This document shows, one piece after another, positions 8-21,377 of a DNA stretch of 37,612 nt (position 1 is its first letter; every line of letters begins with the position of its first letter). The notes under the pieces are model-generated. The model made no database searches and was not told the origin of the DNA. It saw only the letters and a program-made list of their open reading frames with translations. The stretch is from Balneolaceae bacterium (GTDB lineage: Bacteria > Bacteroidota > Rhodothermia > Balneolales > Balneolaceae). The translations under genes were made by a program, and so were the position numbers. The stretch lies in the NCBI GenBank assembly GCA_007694095.1, contig RECI01000221.1, positions 1 to 37,612 of the forward strand, in the 5' to 3' direction.

Positions 8-142
8 ATGAACGAACATACCAACCAAATGATCAAACAACCCTGGATCACCCCGAAAATCGAAATCCTGCCGGTAAAGGCTACCCTGCAGGAAAACGGC
101 CCCCTCGACCCACCGGATTTTGGAAATCAGGAGCTATCTTAA
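8..142 (+). CDS. Small RiPP precursor-like peptide (paeninodin-type lasso leader pattern)
   Basis: A 44-codon ORF with an in-frame TGA at 2-4 directly upstream, so the start must be ATG at 8 or ATG at 29. The peptide has the spacing of paeninodin-type lasso precursor leaders (W-x-x-P-x-L-E-V-L-x-V-x-x-T-M): WITPKIEILPVKATL, with Thr ten residues after Pro. In that family the Thr is position -2 of the core. The core would then be about 17 residues, rich in Pro, Asp and Gly, starting at Gln and ending in Ser. Asp at core position 7 could close a macrolactam; a C-terminal Ser also occurs in paeninodin, where it is phosphorylated. An N-terminal Gln would be atypical, so the cleavage site is uncertain. 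No lasso cyclase, protease or recognition-element gene lies in the window; they would have to be to the left. Alternative: an unrelated small peptide. Confidence 0.5.
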   Translation: MNEHTNQMIKQPWITPKIEILPVKATLQENGPLDPPDFGNQELS

Positions 143-163
143 TCAGTCGCCAATCCAAAAAAG

Positions 164-197
164 AAAACCCCGGAACGTAAATCGAACCGGGGTTTTT
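164..197. terminator. Intrinsic terminator between the small ORF and pckG
   Basis: AAAACCCCGG (164-173) pairs perfectly with CCGGGGTTTT (187-196) around a 13-base loop and is followed by T on the plus strand; the A run on the left arm gives a T run on the minus strand. It lies 21 bp after the small ORF stop and 28 bp after the pckG stop, so it can end transcription from both convergent genes. Confidence 0.85.
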
Positions 198-224: not shown

Positions 225-2069
225 TTAAATAACAGGCCTTTCAGCAGCCAATTCCCAATGTTCGGGAGATCTCCAAAGGCTTGAGTGCAGCAATTCGCGC
301 ATAAAGAGGAATTCTTTCGGCAGCTTGTCATAAAGCTTGCTGAAAAGTTCTTCATGGCTAAGTACTTCTTTCTTCCACGCCTCGCGATCTACAGACATCA
401 GTTTTAGGAAGTCTTCACGCTTGAAGTTATCCATGCCAGTCCAGTCCATATCTTCGTAGCGCGGCATCCAGCCCAGCGGGCTTTCAACAGCGAAAGCTTT
501 TCCGTTAACACGTTCAACAACCCACTTTAATACCCGCATATTTTGTCCAAATCCCGGCCAGATGAATTTTCCGTTCTCATCTTTACGGAACCAGTTTACT
601 GAGAAAATACGTGGAGCATTAGGCAGGGTACGGCCTAACTGCAGCCAGTGGTTGAAATAGTCGGCCATGTGATAGCCGGAGAAAGGCAGCATCGCAAATG
701 GATCGCGGCGAACAGCACCGAGATCACCAAAAGCGGCAGCCGTCATTTCAGAACCCATTGTAGCAGCGGCATATACACCGAAGTTCCAGTTAAAGGTCTG
801 GTAAACCAAAGGTACAGTAGTGCTTCTGCGGCCTCCGAAAATAAAGGCTTTGATGGGTACTCCTGCAGGGTCTTCCCATTTTTCGTCAATTGACGGGCAG
901 TTGGCAGCCGGCGCGGTAAATCGTGCGTTCGGGTGTGCAACTTTGTCACCTGATGCGGGATCGTGTACTTTACGTTTCCAGTTTATGGTGCCTTCCGGGC
1001 AGTCATGGCCAATATCTTCCCACCAAACATCGCCATCAGGGGTTACACCCACGTTGGTGAAGATAGTATCTTTCTCGATACTTACCATTGCGTTTGGATT
1101 GGTATCATAATTGGTTCCCGGTGCAACTCCAAAATAACCTGATTCAGGGTTGATGGCGTTTAATTGACCCTTTTCGTCTTTCTTGATCCAGGCAATGTCA
1201 TCTCCAACGGTAGTAATTGTCCATCCGTCGATTCCTTTAGGTGGAATCATCATCGCAAAATTGGTCTTGCCACAGGCACTTGGGAAAGCAGCTGCAACAT
1301 AGGTTTTTTCTTTCTTGGGTGATTCAACGCCAAGAATAAGCATGTGCTCGGCAAGCCAGCCTTCATCCCTTGCCATGGTTGATGCAATACGCAGGGCAAG
1401 ACATTTCTTGCCAAGCAGGGCGTTTCCGCCATAACCCGATCCGTAAGAGATTATGGATCTTTCTTCTGGAAAATGGCAGATATACTTGGTATCAGGATTG
1501 CATGGCCATGGAACATCTTCCTGTCCCGGCTCAAGCGGTGCTCCCAATGTATGCAGGCACTTAATGAACTCACCTTTTCCGAGTACATCCAGTACGGATT
1601 GTCCCATCCTGGTCATTATTCTCATGTTAACCACAACATAAGCTGAATCGGTGATTTCAATTCCAACTTTAGCTATAGGAGAGCCAAGCGGGCCCATGCT
1701 GAATGGAATTACATACATGGTGCGGCCTTTCATGGAACCGTCAAAAAGCTTTTTGAGCTTTTTCTTCATCACTTTTGGGTCTTCCCAGTTGTTGGTTGGT
1801 CCCGCATCACTTTTACGCAAGCTGTTGATAAACGTTTTATCTTCAACTCTTGCAACGTCAGAGGGGTCAGAGAAGGCCGCAAAACTGTTTGGACGTTTTT
1901 CTGGATTTAACCGGATAAATGTACCCGCATCTACCATTTCCTGGCAAAGCCGGTCATATTCTTCTTGTGACCCGTCGCACCAAACGACTTTTTCCGGTTT
2001 TGTGAGTTCAGCAGTTTCCTGAACCCACTTGATTAGTTCTTTATTTTTAGTGGGTGCTGTATTTTTCAT
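225..2069 (-). CDS. pckG: Phosphoenolpyruvate carboxykinase (GTP)
   Basis: Converts oxaloacetate and GTP to phosphoenolpyruvate, GDP and CO2 (EC 4.1.1.32) in the cytoplasm, the entry step of gluconeogenesis. The 614-residue length is normal for the GTP-dependent family. The nucleotide-binding P-loop with the family's reactive cysteine is visible as FPSACGKTN (Cys266). GDDIAW fits the metal-binding kinase-2 motif, and [12 protein letters not shown] and the C-terminal [10 protein letters not shown] segment are also family-typical. This is distinct from the ATP-type enzyme (PckA) used by many Bacteroides. It is monocistronic: convergent with the small ORF at its 3' end and followed by a shared terminator. 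Upstream, TATCTTTT on the minus strand (2119-2126) is one base off the Bacteroidota -7 element, without a clear -33 partner. Confidence 0.97.
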
Positions 2070-11824: not shown

Positions 11825-13318
11825 ATGAGGAATTTTCATTTTAACAATTGTATCAGTAATACTAAGATTTTGATAGCCGCACTTTGTTTTATGGTATCGG
11901 TTAATCATGCTGAAGCTTTTCAATTGTATACCACCGGTACGGCCAATTCAATTTATCTGGAATCTGATCAAGACTATTCAAAACCTGATATCAGGCAGGA
12001 GATTGATCATGAAGAAATGTATTATGGCGTGCCTGCCCAATTTGTTGAAGAACTTAAGGAAAGAACGTTTACCTATTTTTGGGAAGTGGTTGATTCAACA
12101 ACCTGGCAGACGGATGACCGCTACCCTTCCAAAAATTTTACAAGTATAGCTGCCACCGGTTTTGCACTTCCGGCTTATATCATCGGTATTCAAAATGATT
12201 ATATAACAAGAGAAGAAGGATCCGAACGTGTGCTGAATGTTTTGCAGTGGATGTGGGATTCTCCACAGGGTGAAGCCCCCGAAGGGGTAGCCGGTTATCG
12301 CGGATTTTACTACCATTTTTTGAATTATGAAACGGGTACAAGATTTCAGCAGGTTGAGCTTTCAACGATCGATACCGCACTGTTAATGGCCGGTGTTCTG
12401 ACAGCCCAAAGTTATTTTGATGGTTCGAATCAAACCGAAGAGATAATCAGGGATTTAGCAGACGAACTCTACAAACGGGTTGAATGGAACTGGGCGATGG
12501 ATGGCAATCCAACCATGTCTATGGGATGGTATCCGGAAACCGGCTTTATAGAGTCTCAATGGGAAGGCTATGATGAATCAATGATATTAATGATTCTCGC
12601 ACTTGGCTCACCGGAATATGCAATACCCGATAACTCCTGGGATGTATGGACTTCAACCAATAACTGGGCAAATTTTTATGGGTATGAGCATGTAAATTTC
12701 GGGCCGCTTTTTGGCCATCAATATTCCCACATGTTTATAGATTTTAAGGGGATACAGGACGATTACATAAAGGAGAGAGGTATCGACTATTTTGAAAATT
12801 CCCGACGGGCTACTCTTTCAAACCGTGCCTATTGTATCGATAACCCACGAAATTTTAAGGGGTATGGTGAAAATATTTGGGGATTAACAGCCAGTGATGG
12901 CCCCGCAAATGAAACCAAAACCATCGGCAATCAAACCATAGAATTCAGAACATACTATGCGCGGGGCGCAGCAGCCGGCTACATCGTTGATGACGGTACA
13001 ATTGTGCCAACAGCCGCAGGTGGATCAATTCCGTTTGCACCTGAAGAAACATTGAGTGCTTTGTACACAATGAAGGAGAAATTTGGTGATCAACTATATA
13101 CAGAATACGGTTTTTTGGATTCGTTCAATCTCACCTACAAAGAAGGTGGTTGGTTTAATCCCGATTACATAGGAATTGACCAGGGACCCATACTCATACA
13201 GCTCGAAAATCTTGAGACAGGTCTGATTTGGGACATTTTAAAGAAAAATGAATACATCAGGGATGGATTGAAGAAGGCAGGATTTACAGGTGGATGGCTT
13301 AAGAAATCAGATAAATAA
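11825..13318 (+). CDS. GH144-type (Glycoamylase domain) glucanase-like protein
   Basis: A 497-residue exported protein; a signal peptide is visible (hydrophobic core LIAALCFMVSV, likely cleavage after AEA near residue 31). The rest is one Glycoamylase domain (PF10091 type, alpha/alpha barrel): FTYFWEVVD, the segment around YIIGIQNDYITREEG, WEGYDESMILMILALGS, FGPLFGHQYSHMFID, IWGLTASDGP and IDQGPILIQLENLETGLIWD all correspond to blocks in the lipoprotein homologue at 19356-21377. Characterised GH144 members are endo-beta-1,2-glucanases, but other substrates are possible for this divergent copy. It is the first gene of the SusCD operon, 17 bp before susC, so it likely works in the periplasm or outside on the imported glycan. 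Catalytic residues were not mapped. Confidence 0.88.
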   Translation: MRNFHFNNCISNTKILIAALCFMVSVNHAEAFQLYTTGTANSIYLESDQDYSKPDIRQEIDHEEMYYGVPAQFVEELKERTFTYFWEVVDSTTWQTDDRYPSKNFTSIAATGFALPAYIIGIQNDYITREEGSERVLNVLQWMWDSPQGEAPEGVAGYRGFYYHFLNYETGTRFQQVELSTIDTALLMAGVLTAQSYFDGSNQTEEIIRDLADELYKRVEWNWAMDGNPTMSMGWYPETGFIESQWEGYDESMILMILALGSPEYAIPDNSWDVWTSTNNWANFYGYEHVNFGPLFGHQYSHMFIDFKGIQDDYIKERGIDYFENSRRATLSNRAYCIDNPRNFKGYGENIWGLTASDGPANETKTIGNQTIEFRTYYARGAAAGYIVDDGTIVPTAAGGSIPFAPEETLSALYTMKEKFGDQLYTEYGFLDSFNLTYKEGGWFNPDYIGIDQGPILIQLENLETGLIWDILKKNEYIRDGLKKAGFTGGWLKKSDK

Positions 13319-13335
13319 CAAGAACAGGAATATCT

Positions 13336-16300
13336 ATGAAACGATCCATGTACAATAATTTCCGGTGGATGTCTAAGACAGCAGCCCAAGGCAAACCTTT
13401 TATACTGGTGTTTGCCATAATATTGACAGGCGTTATTTATAACCAGGATGCAAACGCGCAGCAGCAAGTAACGGGAACTGTGGTAGATGCCCGAACCGGT
13501 GAAACACTGCCCGGAGTAAACATACGGGTAAAGGGGAGTGATACCCGAGGTACAGTTACAGATTTTGATGGGAATTTCAGTTTCAATTTACAGGCGGATG
13601 AGTTCATACTTGTGTTTTCGTACGTCGGTTACAATTCGCTGGAAATTATTGTAGAGGGACGGGAAGAGCTTTTTGTTGAGTTGGTGCAACGTGTCGGCGT
13701 GATGGATGAATTAGTGGTTATTGGGTACGGAGCTGTGAGAAAGCGAGATGTAACAGGTTCGGTAAGCCAGATACCGGCAGCAGATATTGGCAAAATTACG
13801 AGTATGAATGCCGAACAATCACTGCAGGGCCGGGTGAGTGGTGTGCAGGTAACCACAACATCCGGTGCGCCGGGTGCAGCAGCTTCTGTGAGAATTCGTG
13901 GTGTAGGGACTTTCAATAACTCATCTCCAATTTATGTGGTTGATGGGGTTATTCTGGATGATATATCATTTTTAAACCCGTCAGATATTCAATCAATGGA
14001 GATTTTGAAGGATGCATCCGCTACAGCTATTTACGGATCAAGAGGAGCAAATGGTGTTATCCTCGTGCAAACGAAAACCGGTGCAGGGCTTGCAGATGGA
14101 GCATTGGTTTCGGTTTCAGTTGAGCGTGGATTTCAACAGCTTGAGCGGAGTATTGATCTGTTGAACGGCCGTGAATTTGCGACGATAGCCAACGAAATCA
14201 GGCCCGGTTCTTACAACAACGTAAATGCAGTTCCAAACGTCGATTGGCAGGATCAGATCTTTAGAATAGCCCCAATACAGAATCATCAAATATCAGTGAG
14301 CGGTGCTTCAGAAAATACAGATTACTATGTAAGCCTGGGATATTTCCAACAATCAGGAATCATTGAAAAATCGAATTTTGAGCGTCTGAACCTGAAAATA
14401 AATAATAACTATCAAATCAGTGACCAGGTTAAACTGGGAAATAATATTACGATTTCTCCATATAAACAGAGGGTTGCACCAAATGTAACGTTTGCCGCTT
14501 ATCGCGCTCAACCACTATTGGAGCCATTTTATGAAGATGGAAGTTTTGGAGTAGTGCACAATGTAGGTAACCCGCTTGCTGATCTTGAAAACTCAAACAA
14601 TTTCAACAGGGGAGTTCGAATAGTCGGTAATGTATTTGGTGAGCTTACAATAGCGGATGACTTTCTGTTACGAACCAGTTTCGGTACCGATGCAGCAATA
14701 AACCGGAGTGAAAATTTCACACCTTCATTTACAGTTTTCAATCCTGATGGGTCTGCATCACAGCAAAACAATGAATTCAGTGACCTGTTTAAAGGGGAGG
14801 GTATTAATTATAACATCCTGTGGGAAAATACAGTCAATTATATCAAAGAATTTCGTGACAGGCACCAGGTAAATGCTGTTGCTGGTTTAACCATGCAGCA
14901 GATCAGGTCGGAAATGATTCAGCTGTCGGGACAAAATGTAATCAGGGACGGAAGTGATTTTTGGTATATGCAGCCCTCATACATTATTGATGAAGCGAAT
15001 AACATCAATATGTTGTCATCCATTTTTAATGGTGTTGATCCCAACCAATACTATAATATGATTTCGTACCTGGGGCGTGTGGTCTATTCATTCAACGATA
15101 AGTATATCACAACATTAACCCTGCGGCATGACGGGTCGTCAAAATTTTCTGAAGATAATCGCTGGGGAACATTCCCATCCGTTGCATTTGGCTGGAATAT
15201 CGACAGGGAAGCATTTATGCAAGATGTAACCTTGATTGATAACCTGAAACTGCGGGGAAGCTGGGGGATTATTGGCAATGAGAAAATATCGTACTACGAT
15301 CGCTTTGCGCGGGTAAATGCAAACCTGTTGGCTGTTTTTGGTAATCCGGATGCTGCTTTTATTGCAGCTACTTACGGTAAATCAGGAAATCCCGATTTAA
15401 AATGGGAGACAACCACACAGATTGATATTGGTATTGAAATAGGCATGCTTAACCATCGGCTGACCGGTGAATTTGATTTCTATAATCGGGTAACCGATGA
15501 CATTCTTATTGAACTGTCCACACCCGGGCATCTTGGAAACGGGCAGGGACAGCGTATTCGTTTTAATGCTGCATCTATCCTGAACCGTGGTATTGAATTC
15601 AGAGTGAACTGGCGGGATTACATTGGCGACGATCTTTCCTATGGTATAACAATTCTTGGTAATACCATTCACAACGAAGTCCTGGCTATTGGCGGCACCA
15701 GCGGAGTAGATTCGGAGCTTATTGGAGGATTCCTTGCAAATGGCCAGCCGGTTACAAGATCCATTATTGGGAAGCCAATCGGGGCATTTTTTGGATACGA
15801 AACGGATGGAATATTCCAAAATCAAAGCGAATTGGATAGTTACCCCAGTATGTCGCTTGCAGGAGTAGGAGATCTCCGGTTCGTGGATACGAACAACGAT
15901 GGCCAAATAAGCGGCGATGACAGAACATATCTCGGATCACCTATCCCCAGGTTTGTTTACGGTTTTTCGTTTGATCTTGATTATAAAAACTGGGATCTGT
16001 CTCTTGGATTTCAGGGACAGCATGGCAATAAAATATTTAATGGAAAAAATGTGGTTCGTCCCGACCCATATAATTTCGAACAACATGTTTGGAACAGATG
16101 GACAGGTGAAGGTACGAGCAATTCAGAACCGCGGCCATCGTATGGAGGGTATAACTTTTTACCCTCTGACAGATTTATTCATGATGGTTCTTATCTGCGC
16201 CTGAGAAGTCTGAATTTTGGGTATAGCCTGCCATTATCATTAACCGGGCGTTTGAACATGAATCAGGCCAGGATTTATGTAAAAGCAACCAATCTTTTTA

Positions 16301-16425
16301 CCTGGACCGGTTACAGTGGCTACACGCCTGAAATAGGGAGTGGGGATGTGCTTTCCAGCGGGATCGACACGGGGATTTATCCCATTCCGAGAGTTGTCTC
16401 CATTGGAGTTAATACAACATTTTGA
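13336..16425 (+). CDS. SusC/RagA family TonB-linked outer membrane protein
   Basis: A 1029-residue TonB-dependent transporter that imports oligosaccharide across the outer membrane with its SusD partner. A signal peptide ends near ANAQQQ (about residue 42). A carboxypeptidase-regulatory-like domain follows (VTGTVVDARTGETLPGVNI, to about 115). Next are the TonB-box region (DELVVIGYGAVRKRDVTGSV) and the plug with the family's hallmark IYVVDG and DASATAIYGSRGANGVI motifs. The remainder is a beta-barrel ending in aromatic Phe (GVNTTF). The ATG at 13336 is 17 bp after the glucanase stop, and susD starts 10 bp downstream. Which sugar it carries cannot be read from the sequence. Confidence 0.96.
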   Translation: MKRSMYNNFRWMSKTAAQGKPFILVFAIILTGVIYNQDANAQQQVTGTVVDARTGETLPGVNIRVKGSDTRGTVTDFDGNFSFNLQADEFILVFSYVGYNSLEIIVEGREELFVELVQRVGVMDELVVIGYGAVRKRDVTGSVSQIPAADIGKITSMNAEQSLQGRVSGVQVTTTSGAPGAAASVRIRGVGTFNNSSPIYVVDGVILDDISFLNPSDIQSMEILKDASATAIYGSRGANGVILVQTKTGAGLADGALVSVSVERGFQQLERSIDLLNGREFATIANEIRPGSYNNVNAVPNVDWQDQIFRIAPIQNHQISVSGASENTDYYVSLGYFQQSGIIEKSNFERLNLKINNNYQISDQVKLGNNITISPYKQRVAPNVTFAAYRAQPLLEPFYEDGSFGVVHNVGNPLADLENSNNFNRGVRIVGNVFGELTIADDFLLRTSFGTDAAINRSENFTPSFTVFNPDGSASQQNNEFSDLFKGEGINYNILWENTVNYIKEFRDRHQVNAVAGLTMQQIRSEMIQLSGQNVIRDGSDFWYMQPSYIIDEANNINMLSSIFNGVDPNQYYNMISYLGRVVYSFNDKYITTLTLRHDGSSKFSEDNRWGTFPSVAFGWNIDREAFMQDVTLIDNLKLRGSWGIIGNEKISYYDRFARVNANLLAVFGNPDAAFIAATYGKSGNPDLKWETTTQIDIGIEIGMLNHRLTGEFDFYNRVTDDILIELSTPGHLGNGQGQRIRFNAASILNRGIEFRVNWRDYIGDDLSYGITILGNTIHNEVLAIGGTSGVDSELIGGFLANGQPVTRSIIGKPIGAFFGYETDGIFQNQSELDSYPSMSLAGVGDLRFVDTNNDGQISGDDRTYLGSPIPRFVYGFSFDLDYKNWDLSLGFQGQHGNKIFNGKNVVRPDPYNFEQHVWNRWTGEGTSNSEPRPSYGGYNFLPSDRFIHDGSYLRLRSLNFGYSLPLSLTGRLNMNQARIYVKATNLFTWTGYSGYTPEIGSGDVLSSGIDTGIYPIPRVVSIGVNTTF

Positions 16426-16435
16426 GGTCATTATT

Positions 16436-17911
16436 ATGAAAATGAATAGAATATTATCCCTGACAATTTTACTGATTGCATTTACCGGGTGCGATGACTT
16501 TTTGAGTGTAAACCCACAAAGTGAACTCACACAAGAGGCGTTTCCAGCCACACAGGAAGATGCTTTACAGGCTACGAATGCAGTCTATTCTACACTCAGG
16601 GATTGGCACTATCACAGCGGTGGTTTCCCAATTCTTGATTTTATGTCGGATGATGCCCATAAAGGGAGTAATCCAAATGATGGTGCAAACACACAAGGCC
16701 CCTACGAGAATTTTACACATACCCCAACACAGGATGGCCTCGATCGGTGGTGGAATGCTTTATACCAGGGAATTCGAAGAGCTAATATTGTACTTGAAAG
16801 GGTAGAGCCGCTGGACATAAATGCTCAACTTAAGAGCAGATTTCTTGGTGAAGCCAGCTTTTTGCGTGCACTCTATTACTTTGATTTAGTAAGGGCGTAT
16901 GGTGGTGTTCCATTAGTTACCTCAGTAGAGGCTGAACTTGACCTGCCACGATCTTCAACGGATCAGATTTACACTCAGATTGAACAGGATTTACTCTTCG
17001 CAATCGATAATTTACCCTTGAAAAGCTCCTATGGGCCAAATGATCTTGGGCGGGCTGCTAAAGGTTCGGCTCAGGCACTGCTCGCTAAAGTGTTTCTGTT
17101 TCAGCAGGATTTTACCAAAGCCGAAGTGTATGCAATGGAGGTTATTGCGTCAGGTGAGTATGATCTGGAAGTGAATTTTGTTGATGCGAATGGTCCGGAT
17201 GGTGAGCATGGCGTGGAATCTGTATTTGAGATCGGTGCTGTAACAACTGCCGGTGCCGGAGGAAACCAATATGCCAATACACAGGGCGTTCGCGGAACAC
17301 CCAACAGGGGCTGGGGCTTTAACCGGCCATCTATCAGTCTGAGGGATGCTTTTGAACCCAATGATCCGCGACGCCAGGGTACGATTATTGAGTTGGGAGA
17401 TGTAATAGACGGGATCGTAATCGTTGGAGATGGAACAACCCCTGATGTTACAACCGATGAAAACGGCAATGTAATTGAGATTGAGAGCTACAACCGGAAA
17501 GTATGGATTCCGGGGACTTCAACGGATTCACAATTTGGCCACAACAGGCGGATTTTACGTTATTCAGACGTTCTGTTAATGGCCGCTGAAGCGTTAAATG
17601 AAAATAATAAACCGGGAGATGCCTTGACCTATCTGAACCGGGTTAGAGAGAGAGCCCGGCATGGTGACGAATTTATTCTGCCCGATGTTACAGAAACAAA
17701 TAAAGAGGCATTGAGAAATATCATCATGGAAGAACGAAGAGTAGAACTTGCGCTTGAAGGACACCGTTTCTGGGATCTTGTACGGACCGGAAAAGCCCCT
17801 GCAGAGCTGGGGCCGGCCGGATTTATCGTCGGCAAACACGAACGTCTTCCAATCCCACAAAGTGAGATTGACCTGTCGCAAGGCACACTTTCACAAAATG
17901 AAAATTGGTAA
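16436..17911 (+). CDS. SusD/RagB family surface glycan-binding lipoprotein
   Basis: A 491-residue partner of the upstream SusC. The ATG at 16436 is chosen because it gives a clean lipoprotein signal (LLIAFTGC, lipid Cys19); longer in-frame starts would overlap susC by up to 86 bp. Cys is followed by DDF, acidic residues consistent with surface export. SusD signatures include SFLRALYYFDLVRAYGGVPL (SusD-like TPR helices) and, near the C-terminus, the segment around LNRVRERA, IIMEERRVELALEGHRFWDLVRTG and the closing RLPIPQSEI. It caps the SusC barrel and binds glycan outside the cell. Confidence 0.96.
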   Translation: MKMNRILSLTILLIAFTGCDDFLSVNPQSELTQEAFPATQEDALQATNAVYSTLRDWHYHSGGFPILDFMSDDAHKGSNPNDGANTQGPYENFTHTPTQDGLDRWWNALYQGIRRANIVLERVEPLDINAQLKSRFLGEASFLRALYYFDLVRAYGGVPLVTSVEAELDLPRSSTDQIYTQIEQDLLFAIDNLPLKSSYGPNDLGRAAKGSAQALLAKVFLFQQDFTKAEVYAMEVIASGEYDLEVNFVDANGPDGEHGVESVFEIGAVTTAGAGGNQYANTQGVRGTPNRGWGFNRPSISLRDAFEPNDPRRQGTIIELGDVIDGIVIVGDGTTPDVTTDENGNVIEIESYNRKVWIPGTSTDSQFGHNRRILRYSDVLLMAAEALNENNKPGDALTYLNRVRERARHGDEFILPDVTETNKEALRNIIMEERRVELALEGHRFWDLVRTGKAPAELGPAGFIVGKHERLPIPQSEIDLSQGTLSQNENW

Positions 17912-17960
17912 ACGAAATACAAATCAAATCAACCCAACCCCAAAACAAAAAACGTTAATT

Positions 17961-19226
17961 ATGAAAACAAGAAAGATAACAATAATACTAATGTCAGCTA
18001 TGCTCACGATAGCTGTTCTGTTCCAGTCATGCGGAACGGATAGTGAACCACAGGATCTGAATATAGAATCAATAATGGCGAGTGGCATTGACTTAAACAC
18101 TGCTACCCCTCCCGAAAATGTACCAGTTGACGCTACCATTGTAGTTTCATTCAATTCCAATATTAAAGCGGAAACTGCTACTGCCAATAATATTTTATTG
18201 ATTCAGGATTTTGACAAAGCAAATATTCCACTTCAGATTTCAGCAAGTGGAAATACACTGACCATACAGCCGCAAGAAAATCTTGGATCCGGAGCTCTTT
18301 ACCAGCTTGAACTGAAAAGCGGGCTTCTTAATACAGATGACCAGTCCCTTGCAAACACTACCCGTTCATTTAAAACAGAAGGTACGTTTAGCCCGGCGGG
18401 AATACTTGCACACTGGACGTTTGAAGGTAATGCCAACGATGTTGTCGGTAATTACAATGCTTCTGCAGAAATTGATATCACATACACAGCCGGCCGGAAT
18501 GATGAAGCAGGTTTAGCAGCTACCTTTAATGGGAATACAAGCATTATTGAAATTCCAAATGGAGATGCGCTTATAAATACATCAGATTTTACCCTTAGTT
18601 TTTGGGTAAAAACAAATTCGGCAGGTCATGTAAATGAGAACAATGATCCGGCAGGCCATTTTGTAATCGGATTAGGTGCTTTTTGGGGAATTCAGTATGA
18701 AATTTCAGCAAACTACGAATCTGCCAAATTTGCAATTCAATTCGAAACAGCCGATGGAACAGCCGTGGGAGAAGATATGTGGTTTCCTGCTGAAGCTACC
18801 GATATGAATAGCGGAGGATGGCAAGGATGGGATTATGCCAGAAGCCTGAGTGCTCAACAGATGGTGGCCCTATTAAAGGATAACTGGCTTCATGTAACAC
18901 TAACTTACCATGGGGCTGATCGCAAAGCACGGCTCTATTATAACGGCGAATTGATGAAAAGCTTCGACTTTGATTTGTGGCCGCAAGATGCCATTCAAAG
19001 AACCGTTACAGGTATAAAATATGCAGGAAATGCACCGGAAGTGGTTAATGAACTTGCATTGGGTTTTATACAATCAAGGGCAGGTACATTATGGAATAAT
19101 GAACCATGGGGCGGCTATGATTTTCCAACAGCGAATCATTTTAAAGGCCAGCTTGATGACATTAAAATTTATCATAAAGTACTTACTGCTGGTGAAATAA
19201 AGCTAATGTACGAATCAGAAAAATAA
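17961..19226 (+). CDS. LamG-domain lipoprotein (SusE/F-position glycan-binding candidate)
   Basis: About 421 residues. The ATG at 17961 is preferred to an in-frame start inside susD because it gives a lipoprotein signal (VLFQSC, Cys24). An SbsA/Big_5-like Ig domain (about 45-140: PPENVPVDATIVVSFN, then NTLTIQPQENLGSGALYQLEL) is followed by a laminin G / concanavalin-like domain (about 150-420: LAHWTFEGNANDVVGNY, FTLSFWVKTN, WLHVTLTYHGADRKARLYYNG, GQLDDIKIYHKVLTAGEI). Both the domains and the position after susD suggest an extracellular glycan-binding protein, with binding rather than cleavage likely. No catalytic motif is recognised. The 49-bp spacing fits the same operon. Confidence 0.88.
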   Translation: MKTRKITIILMSAMLTIAVLFQSCGTDSEPQDLNIESIMASGIDLNTATPPENVPVDATIVVSFNSNIKAETATANNILLIQDFDKANIPLQISASGNTLTIQPQENLGSGALYQLELKSGLLNTDDQSLANTTRSFKTEGTFSPAGILAHWTFEGNANDVVGNYNASAEIDITYTAGRNDEAGLAATFNGNTSIIEIPNGDALINTSDFTLSFWVKTNSAGHVNENNDPAGHFVIGLGAFWGIQYEISANYESAKFAIQFETADGTAVGEDMWFPAEATDMNSGGWQGWDYARSLSAQQMVALLKDNWLHVTLTYHGADRKARLYYNGELMKSFDFDLWPQDAIQRTVTGIKYAGNAPEVVNELALGFIQSRAGTLWNNEPWGGYDFPTANHFKGQLDDIKIYHKVLTAGEIKLMYESEK

Positions 19227-19277
19227 TTTCTGATTTGTGGTTATAAATACATAAAGTTGTAAACCATTTCATAAATA

Positions 19278-19320
19278 TCCCGGTACTCTGTCTCTGGTAT
19301 CCAGAAAACAAGAGTACCGG
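19278..19320 (+). terminator. Intercistronic hairpin before the second GH144-like gene
   Basis: CCCGGTACTCT (19278-19288) and AGAGTACCGGG (19310-19320) form an 11-bp perfect stem with a 21-base loop, followed by an AT-rich but not T-only tail. It could be a leaky terminator, or an RNA-stabilising structure protecting the upstream susCD mRNA from 3' decay. Confidence 0.5.
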
Positions 19321-19355
19321 GATTTATTATAATCAATACCTATTACAGAAATTGT

Positions 19356-21377
19356 ATGAAACCGCAGTATAAGTGTATCACATTTCTCAATTTTCGTACT
19401 CCCTTTGTTCGATTGATAGCACACTTGATGATTTTTGGTCTTTTTATTGCAACAGGATGCAGCGATAAAAGTACCGAACAACAGACAGATATATTTCAGT
19501 TACTTAAAGCATCCGCTGATGATATTACACTTTCAGGCAGTCAATCCATTTCAGGCATTTCTGTTACAGCGATGTTTACTATCGATTTTTCAGTTTCAGT
19601 TGACCAGGAAACGGCTCAAAAAAGCATTCGAATAATACAAGCAGATGATGAATCCAGCATACCGATAAATATTTTTTTTGAAAACCAGGCAAAAACTGTA
19701 TCTGTAAAACCCGGGCAGCCTTTGGATTGGAAAACAACTTACCGGCTTGATATCTCAGATGAATTAGAATCTTTTCAGGGGGCAGGCTTCCCCGGTATTG
19801 AGTATTTTTTTGAAACAGTAAATGGCAAGGGAGAATTAATTGCCGTTACAATCAATAATACAGAATTACCTTCGCTGTCGATCATTCGGGAGATACCTTA
19901 TCATGAGGTAAGCCTCCAATTTGTTTTTTCTGAATCTTTAAGTAGTCAGGATTTTCACAGGCATATCAGGGTCACACCAAAGTTCGAGGCCAACTATACA
20001 ATCTCTGAGGATGGGCGAACAGTGACTCTTAACAATACAGCAGATCTCGATTATTACCGCCACCATTTTATAAATGTCAGTGGTGATTTGACATTCGATA
20101 ACGGGTTTGAATTCGATCCATTTAATACCAGGTTTCAAACCGGACTTAATCCCGAATTTAAATTTCCGGAGATATCTGATGAAGCACTTCTTGACGAAAT
20201 TCAGGAAGCAACATTCAGATATTTCTGGGATTTTGCCCACCCGGTAAGTGGAATGGCCAGAGAGAGAAATACGTCCGGTGATCTGGTAACAACCGGAGGC
20301 AGTGGTTTTGGTCTGAAAGCAATTTTAGTGGGTGTTCACCGCGGATATATTACACGAAATGAAGGAATTGGGCGACTTGGTAAAATTGTGAATTTTTTGA
20401 CGTCTGCCGATCGTTTTCACGGGGTTTGGCCGCACTGGATGAATGGTATTACAGGGGAAACAATTGCATTCAGTGAATTTGACGATGGCGGAGACCTTGT
20501 GGAAACGGCATTTATGGCGCAGGGACTTATTACAATCCGTGAATTTCTTGATGAGAATAATCAGGATGAAAACGAATTGATTGAGAACATTAACGGTTTG
20601 CTTGATACGATTGAATGGGATTGGTACACCCGCGACGGACAAAATGTGTTATACTGGCATTGGTCTGAAAATCATAGCTGGCGTATGAATATGCCAATCA
20701 GGGGATATAACGAGGCATTAATTGTGTATTTATTGGCGGCTTCATCGGAAAACTATGGAATTAATCCCGAAGTCTATCACCAGGGATGGGCGCAATCGGG
20801 AAACATTGTAAACGGGAACTCATTTTATGGTATCCATTTACCTGTTGGGTTTGATTATGGAGGGCCGCTTTTCTTTGCACACTACTCGTTTCTTGGGCTC
20901 GATCCCCGGCAGTTATCAGATAAATACGCCGATTACTGGCTGCAAAACCGGAATCACACATTGATAAATCGAGAACATGCCATAGTGAACCCAAATCATT
21001 TTATTGGGTACAGTTCAGAAAGCTGGGGGCTTACAGCAAGCGATAATTTTGAGGGATACCTGGCACACGAGCCCGTACGTGATAATGGTACCCTTACACC
21101 AACTGCTGCCATTTCATCCATTCCATATACACCGGAAGAATCGATGGAGGCAATCCGGCATTTCTACTACATATTGGGAGATAAACTGTGGGGTGAATAC
21201 GGATTTTATGATGCATTTAATCCTACGGAGGGCTGGTGGGCAGACTCCTACCTGGCAATTGATCAGGGGCCGATCATCATAATGATTGAAAATTACAGAT
21301 CAGGACTTTTGTGGAACCTGTTTATGGAAGCTCCTGAAATTCAGACGGCATTGGAAAAATTAGATTTTACATACTAG
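19356..21377 (+). CDS. GH144-type beta-glucanase-like lipoprotein with N-terminal Ig-like domain
   Basis: 673 residues. A lipoprotein signal is present (FGLFIATGC, Cys35, followed by SDK), so it is probably anchored in the outer membrane, perhaps at the surface. Ig-like beta domains occupy about 50-255. The C-terminal Glycoamylase/GH144 domain (about 275-673) shows ATFRYFWDFAHPVSGM, GGSGFGLKAILVGVHRGYIT, RGYNEALIVYLLAASS, YGGPLFFAHYSFLGLDPR, SSESWGLTASD, a PTAAISSIPYTPEE segment and AIDQGPIIIMIENYRSGLLW. It looks closer to canonical GH144 endo-beta-1,2-glucanases than the 11825 gene. It probably makes the first extracellular cut, with SusCD importing products and the other enzyme acting later. 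The division of labour is inferred. Confidence 0.9.
   Translation: MKPQYKCITFLNFRTPFVRLIAHLMIFGLFIATGCSDKSTEQQTDIFQLLKASADDITLSGSQSISGISVTAMFTIDFSVSVDQETAQKSIRIIQADDESSIPINIFFENQAKTVSVKPGQPLDWKTTYRLDISDELESFQGAGFPGIEYFFETVNGKGELIAVTINNTELPSLSIIREIPYHEVSLQFVFSESLSSQDFHRHIRVTPKFEANYTISEDGRTVTLNNTADLDYYRHHFINVSGDLTFDNGFEFDPFNTRFQTGLNPEFKFPEISDEALLDEIQEATFRYFWDFAHPVSGMARERNTSGDLVTTGGSGFGLKAILVGVHRGYITRNEGIGRLGKIVNFLTSADRFHGVWPHWMNGITGETIAFSEFDDGGDLVETAFMAQGLITIREFLDENNQDENELIENINGLLDTIEWDWYTRDGQNVLYWHWSENHSWRMNMPIRGYNEALIVYLLAASSENYGINPEVYHQGWAQSGNIVNGNSFYGIHLPVGFDYGGPLFFAHYSFLGLDPRQLSDKYADYWLQNRNHTLINREHAIVNPNHFIGYSSESWGLTASDNFEGYLAHEPVRDNGTLTPTAAISSIPYTPEESMEAIRHFYYILGDKLWGEYGFYDAFNPTEGWWADSYLAIDQGPIIIMIENYRSGLLWNLFMEAPEIQTALEKLDFTY

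Follow-up and report, generated by a model that had tools for sequence, protein, structure and literature searches.

A candidate lasso-derived RiPP precursor family in Rhodohalobacter, paired with type IX secretion genes

Described relatives of the precursor

Lasso enzymes are usually regarded as a set whose end product is a ring-closed peptide. The paeninodin system (PadeA, B1, B2, C and K) shares with the peptide family analysed here an aromatic-x-x-P leader, a Thr at position -2, an RRE, a B2 protease, an HprK-like tail kinase and a C-terminal Ser. However, the Rhodohalobacter system differs from paeninodin in being mostly devoid of a cyclase, in the Gln at core position 1, in the lack of a fixed ring acceptor and in cores as short as 9 residues. 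Its genes are also unlinked, several precursors occur per genome, and the precursors are paired with genes of the type IX secretion system (T9SS). Pseudomycoidin likewise involves a kinase and a nucleotidyltransferase-like protein (PsmK and PsmN) acting on the C-terminal Ser, as is predicted for Rhodohalobacter; pseudomycoidin itself, in contrast, is cyclised and derives from a single gene cluster. Bacteroidales lasso clusters (L189-L192) contain the same kinase subfamily as Rhodohalobacter (around 44-47% identical) together with NTP_transf_5, and the fuller loci from Bacteroidales MAGs also encode a cyclase, an RRE, a B2 and a W-x-K-P precursor ending in Ser. Unlike the Rhodohalobacter system, they possess a cyclase, and a ring is clearly compatible with the cores of two of their three precursors (ANLPNGILD... 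and SGTTSGPE...). The Rhodohalobacter peptides look like relatives of the Bacteroidales-type lasso systems from which the ring-forming step is usually missing. A giant gene beside one Bacteroidales cluster (L191) was considered as a T9SS parallel and dropped, since Pfam shows no sorting tail.

Cleavage by PadeB1 and PadeB2 is independent of the cyclase (PMC5067487), BsfB1 speeds up the kinase (PMC10368454), and lasso kinases phosphorylate the C-terminal Ser, the addition of a hexose requiring PsmN (PMC9266682). The cyclase-free cleavage and the stimulation of the kinase make a linear, tail-phosphorylated product biochemically reasonable. Our literature searches found no paper containing both lasso peptide and type IX secretion, and none on lasso peptides or RiPPs in Balneolaceae or Rhodohalobacter.

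The precursor gene and its family

The window is the entire contig C6 (37,612 bases) of a draft genome (4.56 Mb, 99.3% complete, 324 contigs) whose genus is, by inference from named records with kinase loci resembling those of same-genus genomes, Rhodohalobacter (Balneolaceae). It begins at the contig end, and the left flank of the peptide gene is absent. The first-pass annotation had described a 44-codon ORF at this edge, bounded by an upstream in-frame stop and a downstream terminator. The ORF is real (Table 1); an in-frame TGA occupies positions 2-4, the W-x-x-P-x-I-E-I-L-x-V-x-x-T-L spacing is as claimed, and the downstream hairpin is strong and ends in T (-18.6 kcal/mol, z -3.5). A simple terminator scan of the window did not include this hairpin among its predictions, probably because the loop exceeds the length permitted by the scan.

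Table 1. Features of the precursor gene and its surroundings at the left edge of the window
Feature	Positions	Strand	Description	Basis
Precursor peptide gene	8..142	+	44 aa plus stop, MNEHTNQMIKQPWITPKIEILPVKATLQENGPLDPPDFGNQELS	ORF call and family searches
Predicted leader	8..88	+	Residues 1-27, Thr26 at -2	Family alignment; cleavage site inferred from the lasso Thr -2 rule (PMC10368454)
WxxPxI motif	44..61	+	W13-I18, predicted RRE-binding element	W and P invariant in the family; compare YxxPxL (PMC10368454)
Predicted core	89..139	+	QENGPLDPPDFGNQELS; ends with the codon for the invariant Ser, the putative site of phosphorylation	Family comparison
Terminator-like hairpin	163..197	.	Separates the peptide gene from the converging PEPCK gene	Folding
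GTP-type PEPCK gene	225..2069	-	Neighbour and synteny marker only, outside the system	Pfam; same order in G012 (L056)

The peptide belongs to a family. Contig C107 of the same genome carries another copy, 42% identical to the window ORF, and profile searches detected three copies in this genome. Among 28 genomes of the genus, 11 were clearly positive, and G020, which would be the twelfth, gave only a marginal match; none was detected in 64 genomes of 20 other Balneolaceae genera. Removal of duplicates left 35 distinct WxxP copies, all of which end in Ser (35/35). The alignment shows no variation at the Trp or at the motif prolines, and each of the 29 aligned copies has T-x-Q 13-14 residues beyond the Trp. 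With the Thr set at -2, the predicted cores are Pro-rich, 9-17 residues long, and begin with Gln in 29/29. An acidic residue occurs at core positions 7-9 in just 19 of these copies, at varying positions, and two cores have no acid at all. The predicted core of the window copy does open with Gln and have Asp at position 7, as had been proposed; no ring-acceptor position is conserved in the family.

Pooled over 21 comparisons within five groups of closely related copies, pN/pS was 0.26, indicating a coding gene under purifying selection. Together with the motif retained in paralogues and relatives, this value argues that the ORF is more than a chance reading frame. No Pfam model covers the peptide. 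The paeninodin family model of NCBIfam (NF033524) gave 15.2 bits for the window peptide (E 0.013, mainly in the leader; curated cut-off 27) and no match for three sister copies. The leader carries the YxxPxL-like motif of lasso peptides, with Trp in place of Tyr, and the Thr at -2. No signal peptide is evident in the peptide sequence.

Elsewhere in the window, positions 11825-21377 contain two putative glucoamylases (PF10091) and a TonB-dependent receptor, probably a glucan-use locus.

Lasso-type enzymes and T9SS partners

The first-pass annotation had held that an absence of RiPP genes nearby would speak against its reading. No maturation gene was found anywhere in the window; such genes are, however, encoded elsewhere in the genome. 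B2/RRE matches were obtained on contigs C12, C222 and C232, and none on C6. On C12, the B2 protease scored 91.1 bits with NF033537 (cut-off 33); the same contig gave 68.7 bits with PF05402, above the cut-off, and 72.7 bits with NF033536, below its cut-off of 80. The B2 gene and the adjacent PqqD-type RRE are followed by a peptidase-like gene on the other strand and then by an NTP_transf_5 gene, which is cut by the contig end. An HprK-like kinase is encoded on C280. Of the enzymes that had been proposed for maturation, the B2 protease, the PqqD-type RRE and the kinase are thus present (C12 and C280), whereas no lasso cyclase was detected on any contig (E 1e-20); a cyclase could be hidden in a gap of this draft, as the B2/RRE/NTP_transf_5 locus runs into a contig end.

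The structural model of the kinase (pLDDT 90) resembles the HprK and PEPCK folds. In the alignment, the P-loop is invariant, as are H97, K118, D135 and D136; the conserved His and Asp-Asp fit the His-Lys-Asp-Asp motif reported for lasso kinases (PMC9266682). The kinase on C280, the Thr at -2 and the C-terminal Ser kept throughout the family agree with the earlier view of a paeninodin-like leader and of a tail suited to such a kinase.

Two further matches in this genome were not retained: a PF13471 match on C232, weak and under the cut-off, and a second PqqD-like match on C222, which sits in a different conserved operon. A further PqqD-like gene lies in a conserved operon without nearby lasso genes in G000 (the genome of the window), G010 and G001 (L139, L140 and L141). 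The peptidase-like gene adjoining B2/RRE on C12 is split by a frameshift (L021:10295-11444), and its counterparts in G017, G012 and G023 are intact.

The distribution of the enzymes was then compared with that of the peptide across the 28 genomes. The RRE was found in 11/11 peptide genomes versus 3/17 others, NTP_transf_5 in 11/11 versus 2/17, the HprK-like kinase in 10/11 (the window genome included) versus 1/17, and B2 in 9/11 versus 2/17. The corresponding Fisher p values range from 4e-4 to 4e-6 and serve as guides only, since the genomes of the genus are related and the values overstate significance. The lasso cyclase is not associated with the peptide (2/11 versus 1/17); it occurs only in G011, G022 and G026, the latter two of which carry peptides. 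It is absent from nine of the 11 peptide genomes, including the near-closed G024 (10 contigs), where the RRE adjoins B2, and G027 (100% complete). The B2 proteases of cyclase-less genomes retain the conserved Cys (CLVQA/CLAQA) and His (AHAWL). Peptides occur without B2 in G016 and G019, and without the kinase in G006. Another type of lasso-like cluster (ABC exporter, B2, RRE and a kinase fragment) lies at a contig end in G010 (L048, C37), a genome without the peptide family.

A pairing with T9SS genes adds to what the first-pass annotation had observed. Thirty copies were testable, having 400 nt or more of sequence upstream; 26 of them lie at most 400 nt 3' of a gene ending in the T9SS tail pattern, and one more lies at 418 nt (27/30). 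Example tails are members of PF18962, and the whole window genome contains just 26 T9SS tails. Three testable copies (L010, L053 and L104) have no T9SS gene on the 5' side. L104 (G023:C61, around 2800-2999) is the only copy located 5', not 3', of a giant secreted-protein gene.

In G012 (L056), the order is T9SS giant, peptide and converging PEPCK, and the window shows the same peptide and PEPCK arrangement. By this synteny, a T9SS giant gene most likely lies directly left of window position 1, and the contig may have broken there on repeats within such a gene. Joining the window start to the T9SS-tailed contig ends C97, C62, C164 and C81 of the same genome revealed no overlap. Within a 4.5-kb stretch of G012 (C313; L138:6-4469), the gene of an 852-aa T9SS protein has a divergent precursor (EWKDPE...DQGNS) on its 3' side, and beside this precursor lie an RRE and an NTP_transf_5 gene.

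Proposed pathway and competing readings

We propose, with a probability of roughly two in three, that the ORF encodes the precursor of a lasso-derived RiPP, made by a pathway that in most genomes does without a cyclase, and that the product is linear, phosphorylated at its C-terminus and perhaps glycosylated. The best reading of the data is that the lasso-type enzymes act in trans and that the peptide is genetically paired with T9SS surface proteins. The assignment of these enzymes to this substrate comes from co-occurrence and motif, the maturation genes being unlinked to almost all precursors. The T9SS giant and peptide genes would be co-transcribed, the message ending at the hairpin. The PqqD-type RRE would bind the WxxPxI leader, and the HprK-like kinase, aided by the RRE, would phosphorylate the C-terminal Ser, to whose phosphate the NTP_transf_5 protein may attach a sugar. 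Where present, B2 would cut after T-x and release a short linear Pro-rich peptide with an N-terminal Gln, perhaps converted to pyroglutamate. The weakest part of the proposal is the role of the product, whose most likely partner or target is the paired cell-surface protein. Up to cyclisation, the window peptide would behave as a precursor of the paeninodin type does.

The peptide had been annotated as a lasso or related RiPP precursor. Its lasso-type leader and the co-occurring B2, RRE, NTP_transf_5 and kinase support the RiPP part, and the genome encodes a kinase with the HprK-like motif for a precursor that ends in Ser, as expected of a tail-phosphorylated RiPP. The lasso part is not supported: no cyclase was found here or in eight of the ten other peptide genomes, core residue 1 is Gln in place of the common Gly, Ala, Ser or Cys, and no Asp/Glu acceptor at 7-9 is conserved; we did not file the peptide as a lasso peptide for these reasons. 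Nor do maturation genes cluster with it on C6, which breaks off just left of the peptide gene. A threaded lasso ring is accordingly unlikely.

We consider it quite improbable that the ORF is nonetheless a true lasso precursor. In that case Asp7 would be linked to Gln1 (or, with a different cleavage site, to Gly4), either by a cyclase hidden in unassembled sequence or by some other ATP-dependent enzyme in its place. The leader, the Asp7 of the window copy, the cyclases of G022 and G026 and the truncated C12 locus would fit such a precursor, but the cyclase is lacking in most peptide genomes, G024 and G027 among them, and the cores include acid-free and 9-residue examples. The 27 of 30 copies that follow a T9SS gene could also point to a small non-RiPP protein, co-translated with the giant and serving it, for instance by assisting it in the periplasm or by controlling its synthesis. 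The association with lasso enzymes would then be a coincidence of lineage, and the unlinked genes and the shared ancestry of related genomes, which could inflate co-occurrence, agree with this. However, the leader motif, Thr -2 and C-terminal Ser match lasso precursors, including those of the Bacteroidales clusters with the same kinase subfamily, the C313 module of G012 unites T9SS gene, precursor, RRE and NTP_transf_5, and a signal peptide is not evident; we regard a helper protein as improbable. That the copies are relics of a former lasso system, propagated passively as the 3' ends of T9SS genes were duplicated, is very improbable. The cyclase is gone from most genomes, some enzymes are patchy and one copy (L107) is disrupted after T-x-Q, but purifying selection, the Ser kept in every copy and the preserved B2 active-site residues argue against decay.

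The linear, tail-phosphorylated product that we favour can be extended, tentatively and with more doubt than confidence, to a RiPP pathway that has been taken over for use at the cell surface: T9SS giants would have small precursors of their own, and the linear, RRE-guided, kinase-modified products would bind, anchor, cap or signal for their partner. The role of lasso tailoring enzymes would in that case lie in the biology of surface proteins, not in making a diffusible antibiotic. The RRE, B2, tail kinase and NTP_transf_5 track the precursor family in genomes without a cyclase, and the precursors themselves lie dispersed next to the genes of secreted giant proteins. The proposed pathway, if confirmed, would mean that lasso tailoring enzymes act on linear peptides, and it would tie RiPPs genetically to type IX secretion. 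Unclustered precursors of this kind would be overlooked by cluster-based RiPP mining.

Leader-only ORFs (for example ...KKEWQKPVIISLD-stop) were also observed in G012, G016, G019 and G023, flanked by the genes of the HprK-like kinase and the RRE (L132:6797-6901 and L135:7313-7390; also in L108, L124 and L126). Having no core, they are perhaps a decoy or a regulator of the RRE.
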